A DNA stretch of 64,000 nucleotides from a bacterium (GTDB taxonomy: Bacteria; UBP18; UBA7526). The notes beneath the pieces were generated by a model, which was given only the letters and a program-made list of their open reading frames with translations, searched no databases and was not told the DNA's origin. Made by a program: the position numbers and the translations under genes. Positions 29,538-63,675 of this stretch are shown here, piece by piece. The stretch lies in contig JAUXAI010000002.1 of assembly GCA_030619985.1 (NCBI GenBank), forward strand, positions 1-64,000, given 5' to 3'. Every line of letters starts with the position of its first letter. Within the stretch, counting starts at the first letter, position 1.

Positions 29538-29655
29538 AGTAAGCAGGTGAGCAGGTGGGAAAGTGAGCAGGTGAGTCGCGGGAAAAAATCTGTGTTAATC
29601 TGTGTTTTTTAATCTGTGCTAATCTGTGCATAAAGAGATTTACAAAGAGAAAGAG
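29538..29655. repeat. AGCAGGTGAG and AATCTGTG word repeats
   Basis: AGCAGGTGAGCAGGTGGGAA words, then AATCTGTGTTAATCTGTG words, ending in a degraded leader (GATTTACAAAGAG) before dapF. Confidence 0.7.
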
Positions 29656-30474
29656 ATGATTAGGTTTACTAAGATGTCTGCCAGTGGGAATGATTTCATT
29701 GTGATAGATAATCGAGAAAAGCAGATCCTGGATACTGGATCCTGGATGCTGGATTTTGTTAAAAAAATATGTAAACGTAAAATAAATATAGGTGCAGATG
29801 GCCTGTTGCTTATTGAAGGCTCAGAAAAGGCAGATTTCAAGATGAGGGTCTTCAATCCCGATGGGGGAGAGGTTGAGATGTGTGGTAATGGGGCGAGGTG
29901 CGTCGCCCTTTGGGCGAAATCAAAAATCAAAAATCAAAAATCAAAATGCAAAATTGAGACCGAGGCTGGGATTCTGGAAGCAGAGGTCGTCTCTGACAAT
30001 ACAGTAAAACTGAAGATGAGCGACCCTGTTGATACCAGATTGAATTTTAAGCTTTTAGTGGGAGATAAAGAATATGAGGTCCACACTATCAACACCGGCG
30101 TTCCCCATGTTGTTCTCTTTACAGAGGATTTAGAAAAAGCAAAAGTAAAAGAAATAGGAAAAAAAATCAGGTATCACCAGGAATTTGCCCCGGAAGGAAC
30201 GAATGTCAATTTTATAAGAGTAAGGGATGGGAACTCCCTTGACATCAGAACCTACGAAAGGGGAGTGGAGGATGAGACCTTAGCCTGCGGGACAGGAGCA
30301 GCTGCCTCTGCCATCATCTCCCATCTATTGGGCAGAACAAAAGCCCCCACTAAGATGCATACCAAAAGCGGTTCTATTCTTACAGTATACTTTGATTTTT
30401 CCCACTCTAAGATCACCGATCTTTATTTAGAAGGAGATGCGGAAATTATCTATCAAGGAGTTTTATATGGTTAG
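29656..30474 (+). CDS. dapF: Diaminopimelate epimerase
   Basis: 272 residues from ATG 29656. It converts LL- to meso-diaminopimelate for lysine and peptidoglycan. Both catalytic cysteines are visible: EMCGNGARC and TLACGTGAAA. SASGNDFIVID, FNPDGGEV and EFAPEGTNVNF are family motifs. Two in-frame heptamer arrays (29727-29754 and 29917-29951) add low-complexity loops. The last codons and stop belong to a sequence that recurs twice inside the downstream cassette array. DapL, its pathway partner, lies on the far side of that array at 37601. Confidence 0.94.
   Translation: MIRFTKMSASGNDFIVIDNREKQILDTGSWMLDFVKKICKRKINIGADGLLLIEGSEKADFKMRVFNPDGGEVEMCGNGARCVALWAKSKIKNQKSKCKIETEAGILEAEVVSDNTVKLKMSDPVDTRLNFKLLVGDKEYEVHTINTGVPHVVLFTEDLEKAKVKEIGKKIRYHQEFAPEGTNVNFIRVRDGNSLDIRTYERGVEDETLACGTGAAASAIISHLLGRTKAPTKMHTKSGSILTVYFDFSHSKITDLYLEGDAEIIYQGVLYG
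29727..29754 (+). repeat. In-frame heptamer array (CCTGGAT x4) inside dapF
   Basis: Units CCTGGAT, ACTGGAT, CCTGGAT, GCTGGAT, exact 7-base period, coding LDTGSWMLD between the first strand and the first helix. Confidence 0.9.
29917..29951 (+). repeat. In-frame heptamer array (AAATCAA x5) inside dapF
   Basis: Four perfect AAATCAA units and AATGCAA, coding KSKIKNQKSKCK just after the first catalytic cysteine region. Confidence 0.9.
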
Positions 30475-30517
30475 AAATAACCGTAATTGTAATTTCATTA
30501 GGCAGATAAACCTAATG
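30456..30517 (+). repeat. Left half-site L1, overlapping the dapF 3' end
   Basis: Contains the last dapF codons, GGTTAGAAATAACCGTAATT and CATTAGG-CAGATAAA-CCTAATG, a perfect 7-bp inverted repeat. The first cassette starts at G30517 (GTTAG). Confidence 0.8.
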
Positions 30518-30551
30518 TTAGATTTCATCGTGCAACGTTGAGGAAAAGAAG

Positions 30552-30959
30552 ATGAATATTTTCGACTTCCCATTTTCTCATCCAGTTATCTACTGGGGTA
30601 TAGCCTCACTTATGAGCCTGTATCAAGGAATAAGAGGGATATTTATTCAAAGGCATACCGTTGCCGTTCAAAATGTCGGGCTAGAAGCTGCCGACCCAAA
30701 ACGCCAACCATGGACATTGAAAGAGCAAATTATAGTTCATAGAATTCATGACTTCATTTTCAACTTCGTATGCTCAATTGCCGGATACATAGCGCTGTAT
30801 GCTATTTGCATAATTTTCCTCGACATAAATGACTTATCAAAAATAGAAACAGGCACAGGGATTATTCTAAGTTTATTGACTCTTGTATCTTTGGCTGGCA
30901 TATCCGGGGTACTTCCACCACTGTTACTTTTCGGAAAATTATTTGGAAAAGTAGGATAA
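30552..30959 (+). CDS. Cassette protein, membrane, unknown
   Basis: 135 residues. Three hydrophobic segments (about 10-30, 68-92 and 100-125) suggest an inner-membrane protein. I recognise no family. AGGAAAAGAAG precedes ATG 30552. The cassette begins at the GTTAG of 30517, 34 bases upstream, and a truncated attC-like start follows the stop. Confidence 0.55.
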   Translation: MNIFDFPFSHPVIYWGIASLMSLYQGIRGIFIQRHTVAVQNVGLEAADPKRQPWTLKEQIIVHRIHDFIFNFVCSIAGYIALYAICIIFLDINDLSKIETGTGIILSLLTLVSLAGISGVLPPLLLFGKLFGKVG

Positions 30960-30970
30960 AAAATAAAATC

Positions 30971-30996
30971 TAACAGTTGCTGTAGCTGACTCCTTA
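30971..30996 (+). other. attC-like half site (a), truncated
   Basis: TCTAACAGTTGCTGTAGCTG has the R'-like CTAAC box and a start like other sites, but no right box before the L2 repeat begins. Confidence 0.4.
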
Positions 30997-31002
30997 TTTT
31001 TG

Positions 31003-31064
31003 TAAGGATTTTAATGGTTAGAAATAGCCGTAATTGTAATTTTATTAGTACAGATAAACCTATG
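31003..31064 (+). repeat. Left half-site L2 with copy of dapF 3'-end sequence
   Basis: GTAAGGATTTTAATGGTTAG, then AAATAGCCGTAATTGTAATT and CAGATAAACCTATG. It matches 30456-30517 over about 60 bases, including the dapF stop region. Confidence 0.8.
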
Positions 31065-31108
31065 TTAGACGACTGTAACGCCTCATAGAGGCACACGGGA
31101 GGGCTCGC

Positions 31109-32197
31109 ATGGTACAGGAAGGATTAAGACTATTCTATTCCTATTCCCACGCAGACGAAGGATTCCGTAGTCAGCTTGAAAAACACTTGGCAATTCTCCG
31201 GCGAAAGGGGAGCATCAGGGACTGGAGCGATCGACGGATTGCTCCCGGAGCTGAGTGGAAGGAAGAAATTGACAATGCTCTAGAAGCCGCGGACATTATT
31301 CTACTTCTAGTCAGCGCTGACTTTCTTGCATCAGATTATTGTTACGACGTCGAGCTGGAACGTGCCTTAGCCCGCCACAAGAAGGGTGATGCATTGGTCG
31401 TACCTATAATTATCAGACCAGTGGATCTCGAAGACTCGCCTCTCGCTGGATTGCAAGCATTGCCGACTAACGCGAAAGCAGTCACAACATGGGACAACCG
31501 TGACGAGGCTTGGCTTAACGTCGCTCGCGGCATCCGTATCGCCTGCAGTAACATTCAGGAACTCAAACGGGGTTCCACAACAGAGAAGGCGGACTCAGCA
31601 ACCCAGGCACTACTCGAGGAAAAGAAGGCGGATTTTGGAATTTTGGATTTCAGCGCAGAACTCGAAGTCGCGATGCAGGTTGCCATCGACTGTCAAAATG
31701 CCATCACTAAACACACGGAAGAGGTCACAGAGGCACTCCAGTCAGGAACGACTAGAGCACTCCAATTGAAGTCCTCCACTATGCCTGGTAAGGCAACTAG
31801 ACTCCGGCAAATCGCTGGTTCAATGGCTGCCGCTCTAGCCGCATACGCAAAGAAAATAGAGAACACCGCCAGCGAGCTAGAGGAATCTTGGGACCGAGTA
31901 GACGAGTTCTTGCCTAAGCTACTTGAGCTCAGTGATGTCGAGAAGGAGCGAGAACACGTTCCCGAGTTGCGGACGACCATTCTAGGTGCGATGGACTCAG
32001 TTGAGGGTGCCAGAGAGAGCGCAATGGGGGCCGCGGAATCTCTGGCTGAGCTTGCAAAACTAAGTGCAGCCCTCAAGATAGGCGCGAATAGGGCCAAGAA
32101 GGGAATCCAGGCAGTTGTTGAACAGTACTGGCGGATTGAAAACTCAATGCGGCAGACATTGTCCAGACTGGATGACTTGTTCGGTATGAGCGACTAG
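31109..32197 (+). CDS. TIR-domain protein with coiled-coil C-terminus (cassette)
   Basis: 362 residues. Residues 6-140 are a TIR_2-type domain: LFYSYSHADEGFR, SIRDWSDRRIAPGAEWKEEIDNAL, ILLLVSADFLASDYCYDVELERAL with Glu82 as the probable NADase glutamate, then VPIIIRP. The C-terminal 180 residues are helical and rich in Ala, Glu and Ser, with likely coiled coils. Bacterial TIR proteins often deplete NAD+ or make signal nucleotides during phage defence. No partner gene lies next to it, so it would act alone or with another locus. It shows more balanced base use than the flanks. Confidence 0.85.
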   Translation: MVQEGLRLFYSYSHADEGFRSQLEKHLAILRRKGSIRDWSDRRIAPGAEWKEEIDNALEAADIILLLVSADFLASDYCYDVELERALARHKKGDALVVPIIIRPVDLEDSPLAGLQALPTNAKAVTTWDNRDEAWLNVARGIRIACSNIQELKRGSTTEKADSATQALLEEKKADFGILDFSAELEVAMQVAIDCQNAITKHTEEVTEALQSGTTRALQLKSSTMPGKATRLRQIAGSMAAALAAYAKKIENTASELEESWDRVDEFLPKLLELSDVEKEREHVPELRTTILGAMDSVEGARESAMGAAESLAELAKLSAALKIGANRAKKGIQAVVEQYWRIENSMRQTLSRLDDLFGMSD

Positions 32198-32231
32198 GAC
32201 AGACAACCCGCCGGCGAGCAGAAAGGAACCC

Positions 32232-32327
32232 GTCTAACTTTGCGTTAACCTGACGGTCGCCCCTGTCACAGTCCTTGCGGGGCAAGGCGGGCGCCAGGGT
32301 CGCCCGCAAGTTATGCCGACGTTATCT
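32232..32327 (+). other. attC-like site (b) after the TIR cassette
   Basis: CTAAC at the left and GTTATCT at the right, about 96 bases, with inner stem CCTTGC-GGG-GCAAGG and GGTCGCCC/GGGCG pairing. Confidence 0.65.
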
Positions 32328-32345
32328 GACATTTTACACCATCAG
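32321..32345 (+). repeat. Right half-site after the TIR cassette
   Basis: GTTATCTGACATTTTACACC followed by ATCAGAATTTGAATAGCTTT. Shared with 35858, 36453 and 37493. Confidence 0.8.
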
Positions 32346-32436
32346 AATTTGAATAGCTTTATCGCTGTAATCGTCTTTCAAAATCTCTGTAATCAGATTC
32401 CGAGCGTAGTGAGGATATCTTATAATTTTATTAGTC

Positions 32437-32450
32437 CAGATAAACCTATG
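32437..32450 (+). repeat. Left half-site L3
   Basis: CAGATAAACCTATG, preceded by TTTTATTAGTC as in L2 and L4. The cassette starts at G32450 (GTTAGCA). Further upstream the sequence differs from L1. Confidence 0.75.
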
Positions 32451-32473
32451 TTAGCAGCAATAAAAAAGGAGGA

Positions 32474-32863
32474 ATGACGATGTCACAATGGGACCAATTA
32501 CAAATGGATACAAAGGTCACGCAAATATTAAATGTTCAGTCACACGAACCAGGTCATCATTTTGGCAGACCTTTCTTAACTCCGTATCAAATTGCAATCA
32601 GCTTTCAACAACGATTTCCGCAAGATTTCCAAACAATTGGAAAACCAGTTGGAGGAAAAGGAACTGGACAACAAGACTCTCTTGCGCAATACATTGCCCT
32701 TGAACTTTCCAAACGCATTAAAGACAGGAAGATTACCAATATAGAGGGAAGATTTTTGCATCGTGCAAATCTTCATTCACTTGAATATGAAGTGAATAAT
32801 CAGATAATTGAATCATCATCGATACAGGCTTACGACTTGTCTATGTTTAGACTGATTGATTGA
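32474..32863 (+). CDS. Cassette protein, unknown, 129 residues
   Basis: No family recognised. It has HEPGHHFGRPFLTPYQIAISF near residue 25 and looks soluble, with mixed helix and strand. AAAAGGAGGAATGACG gives a strong ribosome site; ATG 32474 or ATG 32480 may start. An attC-like site follows 10 bases after the stop. Confidence 0.5.
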   Translation: MTMSQWDQLQMDTKVTQILNVQSHEPGHHFGRPFLTPYQIAISFQQRFPQDFQTIGKPVGGKGTGQQDSLAQYIALELSKRIKDRKITNIEGRFLHRANLHSLEYEVNNQIIESSSIQAYDLSMFRLID

Positions 32864-32873
32864 AAATTGAGCT

Positions 32874-32944
32874 GCTAACAAAACGCTGCACCTGACCGCT
32901 ATTCCGCTGAGCTCCATAGTGGCAGGTGAGATTGGTCATTAGGT
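32874..32944 (+). other. attC-like site (c)
   Basis: GCTAAC ... ATTAGGT, 71 bases. GCACCTG-A-CC pairs with GGC-AGGTG, leaving an unpaired base as in known attC sites. Confidence 0.75.
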
Positions 32945-32953
32945 GTAATAAAG

Positions 32954-33520
32954 ATGATTGAAATACTTACAGCTATACTTGTCATAGTTACTGGATTTTA
33001 TGCTTGGGTAACTTTTAAAATTTTAAAGGCAAATGAGTCAGTTCTTAAAGAAATGCGTGGCCAACAGGAAGCGCTATTTAGGCCATACATCTCTATTTCT
33101 CCTGTTGTATACACTGATAATCCAATATTTTTTCTTAAGGTTCACAACACGGGGCGATCATCAGCTGACAATTTGAGTTTAACAATTGACAAAGATTTTT
33201 ACCAGTTTGGCGAAAAGAAAGATGACAGAAACTTACGTAATTTCAGTGCATTCTCTAGCAAAATAGATAGTTTTGTTCCTAATGCTCAGATGCTTTTTTA
33301 CTTAGCCCAAGGATTTGTGATTTTCGGTAAAGATGCAAAAAAAGATATAACTCCAAGTATATTTACTGTTACTGCGCAGTATGAATTTTCAGGGAAGTCA
33401 GTACAAGAGCAAACCGTTATTGATCTTAGACCATACTTCAAGAGTGCTATACCACAAGACCCTATTGTGTCGAAGTTAAAAGATATAAAGAAAAGTATTG
33501 ATAAAAAGAAAATCACCTAA
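32954..33520 (+). CDS. Cassette protein with N-terminal membrane helix, unknown
   Basis: 188 residues. One N-terminal hydrophobic helix (IEILTAILVIVTGFYAWVTF), a short coiled stretch, then a soluble beta-rich domain (FRPYISISPVVY, FFLKVHNTGRSSADNLSLTI). It would be anchored with the domain in the cytoplasm or outside; the topology is uncertain. The stop codon lies inside the CCTAAC box of the next attC-like site. Confidence 0.5.
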   Translation: MIEILTAILVIVTGFYAWVTFKILKANESVLKEMRGQQEALFRPYISISPVVYTDNPIFFLKVHNTGRSSADNLSLTIDKDFYQFGEKKDDRNLRNFSAFSSKIDSFVPNAQMLFYLAQGFVIFGKDAKKDITPSIFTVTAQYEFSGKSVQEQTVIDLRPYFKSAIPQDPIVSKLKDIKKSIDKKKIT

Positions 33521-33600
33521 CAATGGTATCAATCTGGCAGCTTGGCTTGCAGCCAAGTGCCCTCGTTTCTGTCGGCTGCAGCTTATACCTGTCGTTAGGC
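33516..33600 (+). other. attC-like site (d)
   Basis: CCTAAC ... GTTAGGC, 85 bases, with inner stem CTTGGCT-TGC-AGCCAAG and outer GGTAT/ATACC. The right box is a canonical GTTRRRY. Confidence 0.75.
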
Positions 33601-33628
33601 ACACATTAAAATAGATTGCGAGGTTCGT

Positions 33629-34087
33629 ATGAAAATAATTCCTCACAACTTCAGGCATGCCAGAGACATTGTCGCATCGAAAGGATTACATGACGAAGTG
33701 GATACCATCATAAAGGAGCTGCATCGTGGATGGTTGAAAAAAAAGACTGGCCTTCTTGCTTTTCAAAAGGAAATCCTCAACAAGTACCGGTGGACACCTG
33801 AATATTCCATCGGTATTGAAAATCGAAGATATGCCTATGATGGATTCAAGGAAGGTCTTGCATTTGAGATTGAATGGAATGTTTCAGAAAAAATACTTGA
33901 AGTCATACTAAAAATGCAATTTGGTTTTGTGACAGGCCAGGTCGAAGCTGGCTTGATTGTGAACGTACGAAGCGATGCGAAGAATTCGCCCATACCACCA
34001 GAAGAAGCCGGTGGTGCAAAAGAGATCGAAGAAATGAAATGCATAATTACTGTGCCACTTTATTTAGTTGTATTTGGAAAGGATTAA
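33629..34087 (+). CDS. Cassette protein, possible BglII-type restriction-endonuclease fold
   Basis: 152 residues. KKKTGLLAFQKEILNKYRW, then YAYDGFKEGLAFEIEWN with a possible E-x-E active-site pair, then FVTGQVEAGLIVNV. This order resembles the core of BglII-like endonucleases, where an acidic strand follows a helix and a sheet continues. No methyltransferase is adjacent, so if it is a nuclease, its control is unknown. The match is by eye only. The cassette starts at GTTAGGC 33594. Confidence 0.4.
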   Translation: MKIIPHNFRHARDIVASKGLHDEVDTIIKELHRGWLKKKTGLLAFQKEILNKYRWTPEYSIGIENRRYAYDGFKEGLAFEIEWNVSEKILEVILKMQFGFVTGQVEAGLIVNVRSDAKNSPIPPEEAGGAKEIEEMKCIITVPLYLVVFGKD

Positions 34088-34111
34088 TACGCATCAAGTG
34101 AAAGTGTGGTG

Positions 34112-34196
34112 CCTAACAGTCGCGTGCAGCAGATGACTATGGCTGTCATGCCGGGGCACGCCAGCCTTGTCACTGCTGAAGCGAAGATCGTTAAAG
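34112..34196 (+). other. attC-like site (e)
   Basis: CCTAAC ... GTTAAAG, 85 bases. GCAGCAG-A-TGAC pairs with GTCA-CTGCTG. The right box deviates from GTTRRRY and no right half-site follows. Confidence 0.65.
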
Positions 34197-34263
34197 AATG
34201 TATATGAAATAACAAAAATGCCCAGTAGCAGGACTTCTTTTATCCGCAAACCGTTATGGTCTT

Positions 34264-34327
34264 CGTAAGGATTTTAATAGTTAGAAATAGCCGTAGTTGT
34301 AATTTTATTAGTATAGATAAACCTATG
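34264..34327 (+). repeat. Left half-site L4 with copy of dapF 3'-end sequence
   Basis: CGTAAGGATTTTAATAGTTAG then AAATAGCCGTAGTTGTAATT and TAGATAAACCTATG. About 60 bases match L1 and L2. Confidence 0.8.
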
Positions 34328-34353
34328 TTAGGCGATAAAAGGAGTAGATAACA

Positions 34354-34797
34354 ATGGTCACATATGGAATAAATTGGGTTGCTATAGTTGGCATCATTGG
34401 AACTTTGGCTGGAGTCTGTGTGGGCGCATTTGTCACTTGGAAGATTCAAGAAAGGCAGTTTAAACATTCTGATGCCACACGGTTTCAAAAAGATAGACTT
34501 GATACTTATGCACAATATACAGGTGCCGCCAACCTTGCAGTATCTTATTGGATAGTCAACCAACAAAATCCAGATGCCACTGAAAAGTTTATCGACTTAT
34601 TTGAGAGGGTACGGTTGGTGGCAACAGATGAAGTTATGAAACACGCCAATTTATTGCATGAGAAATTTGGTGAGATTCAAAGACTAGGAAGTGAGACAAA
34701 AATACCTGAGAAGAATTTATTAGAATTCAATCTAATTGTTGGAAATTTCGTAAATGCGGCAAGAAATGAGTTGCGAATCAGGGAAAACAACTCCTAA
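34354..34797 (+). CDS. Cassette protein with N-terminal membrane helix, unknown
   Basis: 147 residues. A membrane helix at residues 7-30 (WVAIVGIIGTLAGVCVGAFVTW) is followed by a helical cytoplasmic domain (QERQFKHSDATRFQKDRLDTYAQY). The layout of one helix and a charged helical tail is common among small phage- or cassette-linked proteins of unknown role. AAAAGGAGTAG precedes ATG 34354. The TAA stop is in the CCTAAC box of the next site. Confidence 0.5.
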   Translation: MVTYGINWVAIVGIIGTLAGVCVGAFVTWKIQERQFKHSDATRFQKDRLDTYAQYTGAANLAVSYWIVNQQNPDATEKFIDLFERVRLVATDEVMKHANLLHEKFGEIQRLGSETKIPEKNLLEFNLIVGNFVNAARNELRIRENNS

Positions 34798-34858
34798 CCA
34801 GTCACTGCACCCGACCAAAAAACTGGCGCTTTTTGGCGGGTGAGCTTGGATGTTATCT
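34793..34858 (+). other. attC-like site (f)
   Basis: CCTAAC ... GTTATCT, 66 bases. CACCCG-A-CC pairs with GGC-GGGTG and CCAAAAA with TTTTTGG in the loop. Confidence 0.75.
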
Positions 34859-34914
34859 GCAGATCGTATATTCTGCCGGACTTTGGGTATTCTCTCTGCC
34901 CGGACTTATTAGTA

Positions 34915-35156
34915 TGCACAAGAGCCTTGATAATTTCGCAATTCCAAAAGTCAATTTTTTGGTTTATGGGGGATTTTCATTTTTAGTAGTAATCCTTGCA
35001 ATTCTTACTACAATAAATTTTTTCGTTTCTCCGTATAAATCGATATGGAAATTAATAGGTGAGAATGTTTGGACACCTATCCTAATATTTCTTGGTATCC
35101 TTGTAGTTGGTAACATCGGAAGAGTAGCTGTCATGTCTAAATTTATGAAAAAATAA
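34915..35156 (+). CDS. Cassette protein, two membrane helices, unknown
   Basis: 80 residues from ATG 34915. Two hydrophobic segments (VYGGFSFLVVILAILTTI and WTPILIFLGILVVGNIG). The frame is open further upstream through 34833, but that would run back across the attC-like site, so a start inside the cassette (after 34852) is preferred. No ribosome site is obvious. Confidence 0.4.
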
Positions 35157-35161
35157 TTTCT

Positions 35162-35215
35162 CATAACAAGGCGCTACACCTGACTGTTACCCACCGCTAA
35201 TTTCGAATGTTAAGT
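35162..35215 (+). other. attC-like site (g), short
   Basis: CATAAC ... GTTAAGT, 54 bases. GCGCTACACCTGAC matches the left arm of site c, but the right arm is degraded. Confidence 0.5.
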
Positions 35216-35238
35216 GCTCAGAAAAGAAAGGATTAAGG

Positions 35239-35796
35239 ATGTCATTGCTGAAATTGCTTTTCTCACGGAAGTTCAGAACCCTGAGAAAATTACTGTTTGA
35301 AGTCCGAATGTTTTGGCCACCATCCCAAGCTGATGATTTTCTCAGCAAACTCCGATTCTTCTCATTCCTTTTCTACAGTCACGGATTTCTGGGTGTGAAT
35401 CAAATTCCTGCATTTCCCAATGCATACAAAAATATCACCCCTGATGTGTTTAGAAAAACGTACATCGTTCTGCCGTTCTACTTTGCCCTACGGTCGGGAC
35501 TACAAGACTCTAGCTTGACTTCGGTTGAACAGCTAGTAGTCACGCTCTCTCAAAAGTACCCGACTCTAGACGCTGACATTCTGCAACGACTTTCGTCGGA
35601 ATGGCAAGACGCGAATCGTGAGGAACTGGATAGACTTCTGTATGAGCAATTCAAAGCTCAAGGGGTTTTTCGCAAGGTCTTTACTGCAACGGATGCCGAA
35701 GTTGAAAAGTGGTTTGGGAATTTCCTCAACCAAACATTTGACCACGCCATGCAGTTTTCAGTTTCAAGAAGTTCAGCGTCTGCGAATAACACCTAA
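35239..35796 (+). CDS. Cassette protein, unknown, 185 residues
   Basis: No family recognised. The first 25 residues are basic and hydrophobic (SLLKLLFSRKFRTLRKLLF), the rest soluble and helical (SLTSVEQLVVTLSQKYPTLDADILQRLSSEW). It ends with a Ser/Asn tail whose TAA stop abuts the CCTAAC box. AAGGATTAAGG precedes ATG 35239. Confidence 0.5.
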   Translation: MSLLKLLFSRKFRTLRKLLFEVRMFWPPSQADDFLSKLRFFSFLFYSHGFLGVNQIPAFPNAYKNITPDVFRKTYIVLPFYFALRSGLQDSSLTSVEQLVVTLSQKYPTLDADILQRLSSEWQDANREELDRLLYEQFKAQGVFRKVFTATDAEVEKWFGNFLNQTFDHAMQFSVSRSSASANNT

Positions 35797-35864
35797 CTAG
35801 AGCATTCAGGCGACTTGGTGTTCCGCGCTGCCCCACACCAAGCGCCTTATTCCGAGCGTTATCT
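35792..35864 (+). other. attC-like site (h)
   Basis: CCTAAC ... GTTATCT, 73 bases. GGCG-A-CTTGGTGT pairs with ACACCAAG-CGCC, one of the clearest stems in the array. Confidence 0.78.
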
Positions 35865-35882
35865 ACTATTTTACAACATCAG
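35858..35882 (+). repeat. Right half-site
   Basis: GTTATCTACTATTTTACAAC then ATCAGAATTT; diverges afterwards. Confidence 0.75.
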
Positions 35883-35927
35883 AATTTAGGATTTTGCCAA
35901 AATATTGTAAGGTCTAGCTTGTTAGTA

Positions 35928-35941
35928 CAGATAAACCTATG
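35928..35941 (+). repeat. Left half-site L5
   Basis: CAGATAAACCTATG preceded by TTGTTAGTA. The cassette starts GTTAGGA at 35941, 59 bases after the previous right half-site. Confidence 0.75.
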
Positions 35942-35985
35942 TTAGGATTTCATTGATAGAATTAATTCAATCCAAGGAGGTTGAG

Positions 35986-36372
35986 ATGGTTACGGTAGCA
36001 GATATTATGACTCGGGAAGTTGTTACCATCCAAGCAAAAGCACCTTTACGAGAGGCTTTATTCAAGCTGGTCCAAAATAAGATCAGCGGTCTGCCGGTGG
36101 TTAACCAAAAGAATGAGCTGGTGGGAATTATTACCGAGAAGGATATGTTAAATTTCATTCTCAGTGGCAGTCTGCCTCAGACTGTGGTAAAAGAGGCCAT
36201 GACCAAAGAGGTGATATGCTTCCCTCCTGACACACCCTATGAAAAGCTTTGCCTCAGCTTGATTGAACACAACTTCCGGCGCATTCCGATTGTGGAGGGG
36301 AAAAAAGTGGTGGGAATCGTAGCCAGGAGAGATTTGCTCCGCGAAATTTCTCGATTTTATGGTCAGAAGTGA
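35986..36372 (+). CDS. CBS-domain pair protein (cassette)
   Basis: 128 residues from ATG 35986 after CCAAGGAGGTTGAG. Two CBS domains: VADIMTREVVTIQAKAPLREAL with GLPVVNQKNELVGIITEKDML, then VKEAMTKEVICFPPDTPYEKLCL with RIPIVEGKKVVGIVARRDLLRE. Stand-alone pairs bind adenosine nucleotides and signal energy state. It is unlike its neighbours in having a clear housekeeping-type fold and flank-like codon use, so it may have been captured from the host chromosome. Confidence 0.9.
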   Translation: MVTVADIMTREVVTIQAKAPLREALFKLVQNKISGLPVVNQKNELVGIITEKDMLNFILSGSLPQTVVKEAMTKEVICFPPDTPYEKLCLSLIEHNFRRIPIVEGKKVVGIVARRDLLREISRFYGQK

Positions 36373-36393
36373 AGGATTTGGTTATAGACAAAT

Positions 36394-36459
36394 CCTAACC
36401 CATCGCTCCACTCGACCGTGACTGCTCCGCTGCCCCGGCGAGTGAGATTATTGTTATCT
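36394..36459 (+). other. attC-like site (i)
   Basis: CCTAAC ... GTTATCT, 66 bases. CACTCG-A-CC pairs with GGC-GAGTG. Confidence 0.75.
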
Positions 36460-36477
36460 GCCATTTTGCAGCATCAG
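36453..36477 (+). repeat. Right half-site
   Basis: GTTATCTGCCATTTTGCAGC then ATCAGAATTTGAATAGCTTT. Followed by AATCTGTG words and a GCACCGAAC-type inverted repeat (CCGCACC ... GGTGCGG). Confidence 0.8.
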
Positions 36478-36603
36478 AATTTGAATAGCTTTATCAGTGC
36501 TAATCCGTGTCATTTAATCTGTGCTAATCTGTGAAGATTGCCGAACCCCGCACCAGAACAAGTTCGGTGCGGGACAGGCTCCGTGAGGCTTATCTTATTA
36601 GTA

Positions 36604-36617
36604 CAGATAAACCTATG
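36604..36617 (+). repeat. Left half-site L6
   Basis: CAGATAAACCTATG preceded by TTATCTTATTAGTA. The cassette starts GTTGGGC at 36617. Confidence 0.78.
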
Positions 36618-36663
36618 TTGGGCAATCAACCGACGCACAATAGCACAACGGAAAGGAGGAGGT

Positions 36664-37074
36664 ATGAAGAGACCTACAGTGATTATTGCCGTATTGATGA
36701 TGCTGACTGTTGGAGTATCATTCCTTGGCTGTTCAAAGCGGGAACAAGGAGCCGTGTTGCTTCAGGAGGAGCTTGGCACGAGCAAACAAGAAGCCCTAGC
36801 CACAAGCGCAAAGGAAGTTGGTGAGTCCGCGCGTACGACAAAGACCAGCGCGGAATTTGTTCTCAAAAACAAAACTTCATTCTGGTTGACGCTATCTATT
36901 GATGGGGAGAAGAGCTGTTCAGCGCCTCCAGGCGATCAATGCGTCGATCTTGTTACCCCTGGATGGCACAACCTGAAGGCCGAGGAAACATTAAATCCTG
37001 AAAATTATGTCACCAGGACTGCTGATATTCCACCTGAGGGCGCAATATGGACAATTACTGAAAAGAAAAAGTAA
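36664..37074 (+). CDS. Small lipoprotein, unknown (cassette)
   Basis: 136 residues from ATG 36664 after GGAAAGGAGGAGG. The signal peptide ends in a lipobox (SFLGC). A helical linker rich in Glu and Ala is followed by a compact beta domain (AEFVLKNKTSFWLTLSIDGEKSC, GWHNLKAEETL). Two cysteines (KSCSAPPGDQC) could form a disulfide. No family recognised. It shares the cassette with the next ORF. Confidence 0.65.
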   Translation: MKRPTVIIAVLMMLTVGVSFLGCSKREQGAVLLQEELGTSKQEALATSAKEVGESARTTKTSAEFVLKNKTSFWLTLSIDGEKSCSAPPGDQCVDLVTPGWHNLKAEETLNPENYVTRTADIPPEGAIWTITEKKK

Positions 37075-37137
37075 AAATTTGTGACAAAATAAGACGAAGG
37101 AATTCAATAAGAACTCGTTTAGAAAGGAGGTAATGTG

Positions 37138-37374
37138 ATGTCCACCGTTTCGATTATCTTCGGGATCTTGGCAGTATTAGGTTACTTTGTGTTCGTTTTG
37201 AGTTGGGGCCAACCGTCCTGGGTTTTCTGGGGGTCGATCGCGGCCAGCGCGATTGCCATCGTCACAGGCTTCTTGACCAGGACCGCTCGCCGCGGAAAGA
37301 TCGGGCTCATTCTAGGAGCTTTTGGCGTGGTCGTTGGGATCCTCATGATTCTGTATTTCACTTTTACTGTCTAA
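37138..37374 (+). CDS. Small membrane protein, unknown (cassette)
   Basis: 78 residues from ATG 37138 (GTG 37135 in frame). Three hydrophobic segments separated by a basic TRTARRGKIG loop. AGAAAGGAGGTAAT is a strong ribosome site. The TAA stop is in the CTAAC box of the following attC-like site, so the lipoprotein and this gene form one two-gene cassette. Confidence 0.6.
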   Translation: MSTVSIIFGILAVLGYFVFVLSWGQPSWVFWGSIAASAIAIVTGFLTRTARRGKIGLILGAFGVVVGILMILYFTFTV

Positions 37375-37499
37375 CAAGTCGTTGCAACGGACCCTAAACC
37401 ACGTCGGGTTTAGGGCTCATGCTGGCGAGGTTATAATCTTTCGGCATTGTCATGTACCCAACGTGGTACATGAGAGCCACTGAACTCATTTCGTTATCT
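37370..37499 (+). other. attC-like site (j), long
   Basis: CTAAC ... GTTATCT, 130 bases, with two internal stems: CCCTAAACC/GGTTTAGGG and TCATGTACC/GGTACATGA. The length is in the upper range of known attC sites. Confidence 0.65.
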
Positions 37500-37517
37500 G
37501 CCATTTTACACCATCAA
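37493..37517 (+). repeat. Right half-site, last copy, chromosomal border
   Basis: GTTATCTGCCATTTTACACC then ATCAAAATTTGAATAGCTTT. Beyond it come ordinary ATCTGTGC words and dapL, so this is probably the original right flank of the insertion point. Confidence 0.78.
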
Positions 37518-37600
37518 AATTTGAATAGCTTTATCTGTGCCCATCTGTGCTTTAGAATCTGTGCTCATCTGTGCAGATGGCCGAGCCCCGCGAGGACATA

Positions 37601-38764
37601 ATGATTAAAAGAGCCCGAAGGATAGAGAAACTACCCGTTTACCTCTTTGCCCAGATCGATAGGGCGAAGAGAGAAGCCATTGCCAAAGGTGTGGATATCA
37701 TTGACTTCGGAGTGGGGGATCCCGATCTCCCTACCCCTAATCATATCATTGAGGCATTATACAGAGCCGCCCAGGACCCTAAGAATCATAGGTACCCTTC
37801 TTATGAAGGAATGCTCAAATTCCGGGAAGCGGTTGCTTCCTGGTATAAGAAGAGATTTAATGTAGAACTGGATCCAGAGAGAGAAGTCCTTACCCTGATC
37901 GGAGCCAAAGAGGGGATAGGTCATCTTCCTTTAGCCTTTATAAATGAGGGAGATATCGCCCTCATTCCCGATCCGGGTTATCCCGTCTATCGGGCGGGAG
38001 TGACCTTTGCTGCTGGAATTTCCCATCCCATGCCTTTATTGAGGGAAAATGATTTCCTACCAGATTTGGGGACCATTGATAGAAAGATCGCTAAGAAAGC
38101 AAAATTAATCTTTCTGAACTATCCCAATAATCCCATCTCTAGCGTAGCGAATAAAGATTTCTTCAGGAAAGTGGTTACATTCGCTAAGGAGAATGATGTT
38201 ATCGTCTGTCATGATGCCACCTATTCCGAGCTGGGCTACGAGGGCTATAAGCCACCCAGTTTCTTGGAGATAGCAGGAGCGAAGGAGGTGGGAATAGAAT
38301 TCCACTCCTTGTCTAAGACCTATAATATGACCGGCTGGAGAATAGGCTTTGCCGTTGGCAATAGTGATATCTTGGCTGGGTTGGGAAGCATAAAGACCAA
38401 TATCGATTCCGGGGTCTTCCAGGCCATTCAGTATGCTGGCATTGAGGCCTTGACTGGTCCCCAGGAGTGCATCGAAAAGAATGTTGACACTTATAGGGAG
38501 AGAAGGGATATCTTGGTAAATGGATTGAATAGACTGGGTTGGGATGTTCCTCTACCAAAGGTAGCCTTCTACGTCTGGATTCCCGTGCCCAAAGGATATA
38601 CTTCAGCCAAAATCTGCGAAACTCTTTTGAATAAATGCGGAATCGTCATGACCCCGGGGAACGGTTTTGGTAAATCTGGCGAAGGTTATATTCGGGCGGC
38701 TCTCACAGTCGATAAGTCAAGAATAGAAGAAGCGATAAAAAGAATAGAGAATTTAAAACTTTGA
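37601..38764 (+). CDS. dapL: LL-diaminopimelate aminotransferase
   Basis: 387 residues from ATG 37601. It converts tetrahydrodipicolinate to LL-DAP in one step, upstream of DapF. FGVGDPDLPTPNHIIEAL, YPSYEGMLKFREAVASWY, NYPNNPISSVA, HDATYSELGYEG and the PLP lysine in HSLSKTYNMTGWRIGFAVGN match the DapL/MalY-like class. The gene is separated from dapF by the cassette array, so the array split a lysine gene pair. The upstream GTG 37571 frame is repeat. Confidence 0.9.
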   Translation: MIKRARRIEKLPVYLFAQIDRAKREAIAKGVDIIDFGVGDPDLPTPNHIIEALYRAAQDPKNHRYPSYEGMLKFREAVASWYKKRFNVELDPEREVLTLIGAKEGIGHLPLAFINEGDIALIPDPGYPVYRAGVTFAAGISHPMPLLRENDFLPDLGTIDRKIAKKAKLIFLNYPNNPISSVANKDFFRKVVTFAKENDVIVCHDATYSELGYEGYKPPSFLEIAGAKEVGIEFHSLSKTYNMTGWRIGFAVGNSDILAGLGSIKTNIDSGVFQAIQYAGIEALTGPQECIEKNVDTYRERRDILVNGLNRLGWDVPLPKVAFYVWIPVPKGYTSAKICETLLNKCGIVMTPGNGFGKSGEGYIRAALTVDKSRIEEAIKRIENLKL

Positions 38765-43796: not shown

Positions 43797-43912
43797 AAGT
43801 AACCAGAAGTTAACAAGTTACAAGTTAACAAGGATATAAGTTAACACGAAACTTACTTATCAACTTGTCAACTTATTAACTTGTTAACTAATTCCGAGTG
43901 AAACGAGGATGA
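43797..43912. repeat. Paired GTTAACAAGTT/AACTTGTCAACTT repeat
   Basis: AAGTTAACAAGTTACAAGTT on the left, ATCAACTTGTCAACTTATTA on the right, then TCCGAGTGAAACGAGGATGA as ribosome-site module. Confidence 0.78.
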
Positions 43913-60054: not shown

Positions 60055-60855
60055 ATGGGAAAGATAGAGGAGAGTGTAGAATTTATTCGTGGGAAGACGG
60101 ATGTGAAGCCAGAGATTGGGATCATTTTGGGCTCTGGCCTGGGTTCATTGGCAGATGAGATGGAGGGGGTTAGCATACCCTATAAGGATATTCCTCACTT
60201 TCCAGTATCAAGGGTTCCGGGACATAAGGGGAATCTGGTCATGGGAGAACTGGAAGGGAAGAAAATAGTAGCCATGCAGGGAAGAAGCCACTTCTATGAG
60301 GGCCATTCTCTAGATGAAATCACCTATCCCGTTAGGGTGATGAGGGAACTGGGAGCGACAGTCTTGCTGGTGACCAATGCTGGCGGAGGAATAGATAAGG
60401 ACTTCAGACCTGGGAATTTAATGCTCATCATCGATCATATCAATTTCATGGGAGCAAACCCCTTGAGAGGAAGGAAAGAATTCGTTGATCTGACCTTCGC
60501 CTATGATAAAGAATTAATAGAACTAACAGAGCGAATAGCTAAGGATCAAGGAATCGAGATTAAGAAGGGGGTCTATATCGCAGTCCCTGGACCGAGCTAT
60601 GAGACCCCTTCAGAGATCAAGGCTTTTGAGAAATTAGGGGCAGATGCCGTGGGTATGTCTACCATTCCTGAGGTCATCGTTGCCAAAAGCTTGGGGATGA
60701 GGGTTCTGGGCATCTCCTGTATTACCAATATGGCCGCTGGAATCTTGAAAAAGCCCCTAAGTCATGAAGAAGTTATTGAGACCACCAAGAAAGTAGAAGC
60801 CAAATTTAAGAAGTTAGTGAGAAAAATTATCACTAAAATACAGTTAACAAGTTGA
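60055..60855 (+). CDS. punA: Purine nucleoside phosphorylase, trimeric
   Basis: 266 residues. GIILGSGLGSLAD, PVSRVPGHKGNLV, GRSHFYEGHSL, VTNAGGGI and GVYIAVPGPSYETPSEIKAF with MSTIPEVIVA are the PNP class I (trimeric) motifs. It frees hypoxanthine and guanine and yields (deoxy)ribose 1-phosphate. The C-terminal QLTS is encoded by a GTTAACAAG repeat. Confidence 0.95.
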   Translation: MGKIEESVEFIRGKTDVKPEIGIILGSGLGSLADEMEGVSIPYKDIPHFPVSRVPGHKGNLVMGELEGKKIVAMQGRSHFYEGHSLDEITYPVRVMRELGATVLLVTNAGGGIDKDFRPGNLMLIIDHINFMGANPLRGRKEFVDLTFAYDKELIELTERIAKDQGIEIKKGVYIAVPGPSYETPSEIKAFEKLGADAVGMSTIPEVIVAKSLGMRVLGISCITNMAAGILKKPLSHEEVIETTKKVEAKFKKLVRKIITKIQLTS

Positions 60856-61044
60856 CAAGGATACAAGTTGACAAGATTGTCCAAAGCCGTTAGTAGTTGG
60901 ATAAGGGTTAGGTGTTTAAAGACCAACTACCTAACCTAACAACCAAACTAACAACCTAACCTTAGCCCTAACCAAATGTTTTTTTATTCACTTATCAACT
61001 TATTGACTTATTAACTTGTCAACTATGTTTATTAGGAGATAAAA
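60842..61044. repeat. Nested inverted-repeat element, copy 1
   Basis: Outer arms GTTGACAAGGATACAAGTTG and AACTTGTCAAC; inner arms GGGTTAGGTG and CTACCTAACC around TTTAAAGACCAA. It is partly repeated at 63490-63675 including the non-palindromic GACAAGATTGTCCAAAG. Confidence 0.8.
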
Positions 61045-62519: not shown

Positions 62520-63515
62520 ATGGAGCTGGGTCGAAATTTCACTAACACCTTTGTCTTGGATGAGTTGAGTAAAGAGGATCAAAGGAAGGTCTTAAAAGGA
62601 GAGTATGATCTCTTTAGCATGAATGCCTTGGGATTGGTTAAGTTTAAGAAAGACATTTTTTTCCAGATTAAATTGGCCAAGGAGTTGGGTCTGGACCATA
62701 TCGAACTGGATGGCGATGTCCCTAATCCTTATCCAGATTTCAGTAGGGAAGAGAGAGAAAAGGTGAAAGAAAAAGCAAGGAAAGAGGGGATTTCATTATC
62801 CCTTCATCTCTCCTATTCCAATGTGGGTTCGAGCGTCTGCAGTTTACAAGAGCTGGACAGAAGAAAAGCAGTGGAATTACAGAAGGTATACATTGATTTT
62901 GCTTCTGATATCGGAGCGAGGTATCTTATTATGCATCCGGGAAGCGCTCCCTTTTATATGGTCTCTAAACTTTATCTTGAGAAGTTGAAAGAGGCCTTAG
63001 TCAAGACTTTAGTAGAGTTAGGAAGTTATGCTCAGGAGAGGGATTTGCTTTTGCATTTAGAGAATAATGTCGCCTTCGATAACATCTTCGTTGAGCCCGA
63101 GGATTGCATTGGGGTGGTTGAGGAAGCAAGGAAGAAGGGGGCAGAGGTCTACTTTAACTTCGATATTGGACACTGGTTTACCAGAGCAGATTGTGGGAAA
63201 GATATTCCTGATGAGCCAGAAAGGGTGATGGAAAAAATCCCTAGGGAGCTGGTAAAGGAACTCCACCTCAATGACTATGTTCCTGGGAAAAAGACCTTCC
63301 ATCCACCGTTACATTTGGAGACTGGGCCCTTAAAAAGAAAAAACCTTGAGAATTATTTTGAGATCGTAAAGAAATTAGAGCCGGAACTCATCGTCCTGGA
63401 GACGGCCTATAAGTATCTCGATCAGGTGAAGAATAGGAAAAAGATTCTGGAAGAGGAAACAGCCTACATCAAAGAGTTGTTGGCGAGTATACAAGTTAAC
63501 AAGGGAACAAGTTGA
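62520..63515 (+). CDS. TIM-barrel protein, paralogue of 2559-3536
   Basis: 331 residues. It shares GRNFTN near the start, LGLDHIELDG, SLHLSY, LIMHPGSAPFY, LHLENN, FDIGHWFTRAD, LHLNDY, HPPLHLETGPLKRKNLE and VLETA with the gene at 2559. The conserved His and Glu residues suggest a metal-dependent sugar-phosphate enzyme. The two copies bracket the nucleoside/BMC region. The end (IQVNKGTS) is repeat-encoded. Role unknown. Confidence 0.72.
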   Translation: MELGRNFTNTFVLDELSKEDQRKVLKGEYDLFSMNALGLVKFKKDIFFQIKLAKELGLDHIELDGDVPNPYPDFSREEREKVKEKARKEGISLSLHLSYSNVGSSVCSLQELDRRKAVELQKVYIDFASDIGARYLIMHPGSAPFYMVSKLYLEKLKEALVKTLVELGSYAQERDLLLHLENNVAFDNIFVEPEDCIGVVEEARKKGAEVYFNFDIGHWFTRADCGKDIPDEPERVMEKIPRELVKELHLNDYVPGKKTFHPPLHLETGPLKRKNLENYFEIVKKLEPELIVLETAYKYLDQVKNRKKILEEETAYIKELLASIQVNKGTS

Positions 63516-63675
63516 CAAGATTGTCCAAAGTCGTTGGTAGTTGGGTTAAGACAAAGTAGTGAGTTTAGTAGTTGGGTAAGGGTTAGGTGTTTAAAGACCA
63601 ACTACCTAACCTTAACCCTAACCAAATGTTTTCTTATTAACTTATCAACTAATCAACTTGTCAACTCTTGCGGGA
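63490..63675. repeat. Nested inverted-repeat element, copy 2
   Basis: Same order as 60842-61044: GTTAACAAGGGAACAAGTTG, GACAAGATTGTCCAAAG, GGGTTAGGTG, TTTAAAGACCAACTACCTAA, then ATCAACTTGTCAACTC. It carries an extra block (AGACAAAGTAGTGAGTTTAG). It overlaps the end of the TIM-barrel gene. Confidence 0.8.

Follow-up and report, generated by a model that had tools for sequence, protein, structure and literature searches.

Integron integrases (IntI) join the attC site of a gene cassette to an attI site at the crossover G|TT, and a typical integron is described with one attI, next to its integrase. Arrays of cassettes without an integrase gene (intI) are referred to as clusters of attC sites lacking integron integrases (CALINs), and CALINs can be mobilized by IntI supplied in trans (PMC9668308, PMC12444791). 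In archaeal integrons, most of which are CALINs, attI is located immediately downstream of intI (Ghaly et al. 2022, PMC9668308). In class 1 and class 2 integrons, ΔattI-type cassettes contain partial attI sites of at least 14 nucleotides (nt) within arrays, have the core AAACAAAG|TTRRRY or AATAAAATG|TTRRRY, and are recombined by IntI1 (PMC12901181). Here, we analyzed positions 1 to 64,000 of contig JAUXAI010000002.1 (assembly GCA_030619985.1; GTDB lineage Bacteria; UBP18; UBA7526), from here on the window, in which small genes with attC sites are located between dapF and dapL together with six full or partial copies of an attI-like site of ~56 nt. We consider it likely that an integron integrase made this array as six tandem units, each led by an attI-like site, in a genome that is now without a detected integrase.

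By definition, the array is a CALIN, because it contains at least two attC sites in one orientation and no integron integrase was found in the incomplete genomes of the phylum. A complete integron has a functional intI and an adjacent attI, while here intI was absent from the genome of the window (G000) and was found only as remnants in genomes of the WOR-3 phylum. Like CALINs in the usage of IntegronFinder, the array has several cassettes with attC sites in the same direction, small and mostly orphan genes, and no intI nearby or elsewhere in the genome assembly; it differs in that it keeps six tandem attI-like sites, with further copies at other loci. The closest precedent is the ΔattI-type cassettes. 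As in these, the partial copies in the window keep GATAAACCTATG|TT or more, and in one truncated attC the lost part has been replaced by attI. The junction between this attC arm (30968-30990) and the following attI-like copy is comparable to a ΔattI-type 3' end and has a similar counterpart in G002. The ΔattI pattern may fit unit 1 (30968-31068) and a G002 unit; the other units retain attC. However, ΔattI replaces attC at the 3' end of a cassette in mobile integrons with known intI and attI (PMC12901181), whereas the ~56-nt sites described here lead new cassette runs at many loci in several phyla, with no intI found. Compared by description, archaeal attI sites adjoin intI, while the copies here are mostly apart from intI and numerous per genome. 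The chromosomal integrons of Xanthomonas resemble this locus in their fixed position by a housekeeping gene and in the progressive loss of intI by which CALINs remain, but in the portion of the account considered here the ancestral platform is placed at one fixed locus, and dispersed copies of attI are not mentioned (PMC12444791). In the open-access literature, we came across no account of genomes that lack intI and have many dispersed attI copies.

attI-like and attC sites in the array

Each unit of the array begins with attI-like sequence. The full form is (G/A/T)TTATAYGGTTARNAWTAGCCGTRATTGTAATTTTATTAGTACAGATAAACCTATG|TTAG, and the six copies end in ...TTAGTACAGATAAACCTATG|TTAG. Using a 60-position model of the site (R3), we found matches in G000 only in this array and on contig C34, where a seventh copy is located with a single cassette and an attC between recO and glyS. 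The right half of attI, TTATCTGCCATTTTACACCATCAGAATTTG, is found after the last attC of most units (at 32321, 35857, 36453, and 37493). Joining the left and right halves gives TTAGTACAGATAAACCTATGTTATCTGCCATT, in which CAGATAA-ACCTATG-TTATCTG forms a core with two arms, as in known attI sites. A hairpin within the site (GGTTA-NNNN-TAGCC) looked attractive but was dropped for want of supporting covariation.

The attC sites were identified using two covariance models. Model R1 was built only from 12 class-1 integron cassettes on annotated plasmids, while model R2 combined 14 sites from this lineage and its relatives with 4 mobile sites. Because the training set of R2 included six strong window sites (but not those at 32232, 35161, and 37369), R1 represents the independent test. 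In the window, R1 matched 33515-33600 with an E value of 1.3e-6 (28.5 bits), 34795 with 0.13, and 37369 with 2.9, and its better matches in related arrays had E values of 1e-3 to 2e-7. R2 identified nine attC sites (six good and three degenerate), all on the + strand and all within 32.2-37.5 kb, with scores of at least 19.7 bits compared to 11.5 bits for the best match elsewhere in the 64 kb; across G000, it matched only this array and one site on C34. In the R2 alignment, 90.9% of cells in the L''/L' helix are paired and compensatory changes are numerous, and in the whole attC structure both sides had changed in 37 cells vs 15 expected. The helix was better than local shuffles at 32873, 33515, 34111, 34792, 35791, and 36393, and no better at 32232, 35161, and 37369. 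An Rfam scan of the window gave no match. A home-made attC descriptor was dropped, as it gave no discrimination; it fails because many right boxes in this array are GTTATCT and fall outside GTTRRRY. Separately, we observed near-palindromic AGTTAACAAG-type stretches that mimic attC boxes at 43823-43889, 60842-60913, and 63494-63588.

These results agree with a preliminary description of the window, made from the sequence alone, which had reported an integron-like cassette array. R2 matched all five attC-like positions named there (32874, 33516, 34793, 35792, and 36394), and R1 recognized the second of these independently. The reported ten units are roughly right, as there are 11 open reading frames (ORFs), nine recognizable attC sites, and one attC of which only the left arm remains (30968). 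The stop codons reported inside the left attC box were found in four ORFs, each with a TAA stop (ends at 33520, 34797, 35796, and 37374). That description overlooked the six attI-like sites, a dispersed repeat common to other phyla and tied to decayed intI.

The attI-like site in relatives and in other phyla

Within the phylum, dapF and dapL are ~60 nt apart and without an array in another genus of the family (G003), while G000, G001, G002, and G004 have attI-like sites and cassette-like inserts with different genes downstream of dapF. Thus, the dapF-dapL pair was split, as the preliminary description had proposed; the alternative that it had named, a conserved gene order in stable operons, fails, since gene content differs in every genome and G003 lacks the array genes. 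Only one cassette is common to G000 and the relatives at this locus. The block at 36592-37386 is 96.7% identical to G002, compared to 86-88% for the flanking genes, and it therefore appears that cassettes moved after the split of the sister species, i.e., fairly recently. The attI-like site was also found at another intergenic locus in G001 (C29). We note that the cassette genes with 96.7% identity in G000 and G002 end in attC sites (37369-37499; L054 2571-2628) that are related only over the first ~18 nt, as might be seen after an exchange of the attC hairpin. We also note that an attI-like copy in G004 (L057 4062-4184) is followed at once by an ORF-less cassette-like unit of ~95 nt with a weak attC match.

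Public genomes were scanned with a 21-base pattern of the site, which was found in metagenome-assembled genomes (MAGs) of WOR-3 and Stahlbacteria and in bins labeled Zixibacteria, Atribacterota, and Thermoplasmatota. With R3, matches were obtained in 18 of the 147 WOR-3 phylum genomes, and as many as 13 copies were found in a single genome, on several contigs. The Thermoplasmatota-labeled contig (L181) encodes CHASE2, WD40, and peptidoglycan-binding proteins; because of the peptidoglycan-binding and CHASE2-domain genes, an archaeal host is doubtful, and the bin may be contaminated or misbinned. Pattern matches in Winogradskyella, Flavobacterium, Lacinutrix, Thermoanaerobacter, and Clostridia had none of the upstream conservation and were regarded as chance matches. 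A search of IMG/VR for the exact pattern did not yield the site, and neither did plasmid and phage records. Two WOR-3 genomes (at L177 8326 and L179 2056) have in common a similar attI copy, upstream DNA, and cassette start, suggesting recent transfer. In some WOR-3 copies, a perfect promoter of the sigma-70 type (TTGACA-17-TATAAT) is located ~96 or 180 nt upstream of the crossover.

Several lines of evidence support that the repeat is attI. In a profile of 33 distinct copies, the columns from about -24 to the crossover carry about 1.3-2 bits each, those at +3/+4 (RRRY, which belongs to the cassette) ~1 bit, and those farther on mostly 0-0.4 bits. The copies had been selected in part by the core around the crossover, whereas the drop beyond it and much of the upstream conservation did not enter into this selection. 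We examined 53 copies at about 30 loci, and the attC sites of the same locus share the strand of the copy, with none opposed. Four WOR-3 copies (two in G105:C49, one each in G103:C273 and G197:C325) have a decayed intI 109-143 nt upstream on the same strand, and the two remnants in G105 contain the IntI-specific stretch. The window copies, unlike these four, are not adjacent to intI, and the four support that the site is an attI that has become separated from its integrase. Several other copies retain, upstream, part of the DNA that lies between remnant and attI, and together the copies form a gradation of intI loss. The two remnants in G105 are 89% identical and have a common downstream truncation point, so the broken module was probably copied after breaking. 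Moreover, three attI copies in G098 begin at an attC crossover, and two modules of promoter plus attI in G105 start at G|TTATACCCC immediately after attC. The truncated gene in the window (34852-35156) is 85% identical over 334 nt to a complete WOR-3 cassette gene (L067/G098), and this homology begins only at the G|TT crossover, where it is joined to the attC at 34792-34858. Judged from these alignments, cassettes join at G|TT of a site whose conserved upstream region would cover the integrase-binding part, as for attI.

Next to the site, we found remnants only. In six genomes of the phylum, all MAGs that are 53-93% complete, no protein scored over the 265-bit cutoff of the integron integrase model TIGR02249, for which plasmid IntI1, as a positive control, scored 508.6 bits. 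This is in agreement with the integrase-free CALIN of the preliminary description; because of the incompleteness of the genomes, the absence of intI from them is probable, not proven. G000 has two tyrosine recombinases, of the XerC and XerD types, and the other genomes of the phylum have 1-3 tyrosine recombinase matches each. In WOR-3, no full-length integrase was found at a strict E value of 1e-40 (full-length IntI1 by itself gave 7e-153), but control genomes were also without a match, and absence is not shown. The attI-rich WOR-3 genomes G098, G101, and G105 encode a XerA-like tyrosine recombinase that is related to IntI, scores below the integron integrase cutoff, and was not seen near the arrays examined.

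Cassette genes and flanking genes

The location of the array between dapF and dapL was confirmed by matches of both flanking genes to their protein families (Table 1). The last codons and the stop codon of dapF are now inside attI-like copy 1; the junction reads CAAGGAG|TTTTATATGGTTAG, with GGCGAGCTATAA and GGAGAGCTAGTTTAG as the counterparts in relatives. All 11 ORFs between the two genes are on the + strand, and the cassettes mostly contain a single ORF without a promoter, often with the stop codon within attC. One ORF encodes a ThsB-like TIR protein, and our scan of cassette proteins did not identify a ThsA partner. We also observed a short intergenic repeat (ATCTGTGTTAATCTGTG...) upstream of genes at 29588-29628, 36493-36533, and 37533-37573 that recurs in intergenic regions of the relatives.

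Table 1. Coordinates of genes and recombination sites at the dapF-dapL locus (window positions; R1 and R2, attC models; R3, attI-like site model)
Feature	Position	Strand	Match or score
dapF, left flank	29656..30474	+	TIGR00652, E=6.7e-79
attI-like copy 1, slightly diverged, 1-nt insertion before crossover	30462..30521	+	R3 52.8 bits, E=1.1e-14
Cassette ORF, 135 amino acids (aa), membrane-like (predicted by eye)	30552..30959	+	No Pfam match
Left arm of attC (ATCTAACAGTTGCTGTAGCTGAC), fused directly to attI-like copy 2	30968..30990	+	Sequence
attI-like copy 2, complete	31010..31068	+	R3 65.2 bits, E=1.4e-18
Cassette ORF, 362 aa, TIR domain, matches Thoeris ThsB	31109..32197	+	PF13676, 1e-15; PADLOC ThsB, 1.8e-55
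attC, degenerate	32232..32327	+	R2 19.9 bits, E=0.011 (filters off)
Right half of attI (TTATCTG...), upstream of attI-like copy 3	32321..32363	+	
attI-like copy 3, partial, 35 nt up to crossover	32420..32454	+	R3 37.6 bits
Cassette ORF, 129 aa, without family	32474..32863	+	
attC	32873..32944	+	R2 68.4 bits; 86% identical over 58 nt to a WOR-3 attC
Cassette ORF, 188 aa, stop within attC left box	32954..33520	+	
attC	33515..33600	+	R1 28.5 bits, E=1.3e-6; R2 43.9 bits
Cassette ORF, 152 aa, weak BglII-endonuclease similarity below cutoff	33629..34087	+	PF09195, E=7e-4, 19.7 bits vs 26
attC	34111..34196	+	R2 34.6 bits
attI-like copy 4, complete	34273..34331	+	R3 54.9 bits
Cassette ORF, 147 aa, stop within attC left box	34354..34797	+	
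attC	34792..34858	+	R2 56.5 bits; R1 E=0.13
5'-truncated cassette gene, homologous part (ORF 34833-35156)	34852..35156	+	
attC, degenerate	35161..35215	+	R2 22.4 bits, E=0.002 (filters off)
Cassette ORF, 185 aa, stop within attC left box	35239..35796	+	
attC	35791..35864	+	R2 46.1 bits
Right half of attI	35857..35887	+	
attI-like copy 5, partial, 27 nt	35919..35945	+	R3 28.2 bits
Cassette ORF, two CBS domains	35986..36372	+	PF00571, 1.5e-34
attC	36393..36459	+	R2 51.7 bits
Right half of attI, running on into copy of dapL leader	36453..36495	+	
attI-like copy 6, partial, 36 nt	36585..36620	+	R3 33 bits
Cassette ORF, 136 aa, lipoprotein-like	36664..37074	+	
Second ORF of last cassette, 79 aa, stop within attC left box	37135..37374	+	
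attC, degenerate, last of array	37369..37499	+	R2 19.7 bits, E=0.012 (filters off); R1 E=2.9
Right half of attI (TTATCTGCCATTTTACACCATCA...), beside dapL	37493..37535	+	
dapL, right flank	37601..38764	+	TIGR03540, 1.7e-188

Origin of the repeated attI-like sites

Among the alternatives to an integrase-made array, the one that survives best, and that we regard as possible rather than probable, is an ordinary CALIN in which one old integron lost intI and the attI-like repeats (dapL leader plus attI) arose as tandem duplications by slippage or unequal crossing-over. The dapL-leader sequence in the spacer before copy 6 and before the second copy in G004 is as expected from such duplications, and XerC and XerD were the sole tyrosine recombinases found in G000. 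However, tandem duplication cannot yield the copies at other loci (recO-glyS in G000 and C29 in G001), the copies in other phyla with up to 13 per genome on several contigs, or the starts at attC crossovers in G098 and G105, and all three count against it. It is improbable that the 56-nt repeat is a promoter, a regulatory element, or the end of a miniature inverted-repeat transposable element (MITE) that lies before cassettes by coincidence: the repeat is indeed dispersed, and some WOR-3 copies have a perfect promoter, but conservation reaches the cassette boundary and ends at G|TT, decayed intI is located at a near-fixed upstream distance in four copies, the right half at dapL completes the inverted core, and the window copies are without promoters. 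Still less credible is that host XerC and XerD recombine cassettes at a dif-like site in a phylum that never needed an integron integrase, because, even though these enzyme types were the only tyrosine recombinases identified in G000, zero of six genomes had an integron integrase over the cutoff, and the joined site has a two-arm core, the attC hairpins with extrahelical bases and the G|TT ends are integron features and IntI remnants accompany the site in WOR-3.

Several observations also weigh against the integrase-made array that we favor. We observed no recombination and found no intact integrase that matches this attI; the MAGs are incomplete, so intI could be missing from each of them. 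Three of the six attI copies in the window are partial and three attC sites are degenerate, and parts of the array may therefore be fossil. None of the window copies has a promoter better than in shuffled sequence. Because dapL-leader DNA precedes copy 6, tandem duplication of the locus accounts for part of the repetition and needs no recombinase. Lastly, about half of all attI copies start elsewhere than at G|TT.

For an integrase-made array, the ancestral platform would have been an intI with attI, in the same direction, ~110-140 nt downstream of it. Cassettes would have been inserted at the G|TT crossover of attI by an integron integrase that is no longer encoded in the assembly, and cassette gain would have gone on at least past the split of the sister species. 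After the loss of intI, attI, sometimes with a promoter, would have kept spreading within and between genomes, and each copy could found or restart an array given integrase in trans. The copies may have moved partly by the G|TT reaction, with integrase in trans, and partly by local tandem duplication. The distribution of the copies suggests that attI spread without its integrase gene. More tentatively, attI may be a non-autonomous mobile unit, in which a G|TT-bounded attI or promoter plus attI moved like a cassette, with integrase in trans, to new chromosomal loci, where it would start new arrays, and across phyla, in lineages that have lost intI.

If a conserved attI is indeed present in multiple copies, at multiple loci, and in multiple phyla with no integrase, the acceptor site would be able to spread alone, and genomes without intI could still share a cassette pool whenever an integrase is available. 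The 56-nt site and its model R3 provide a sequence handle for array starts that are unreported by searches based on attC or intI, and are also usable for tracing the missing integrase.

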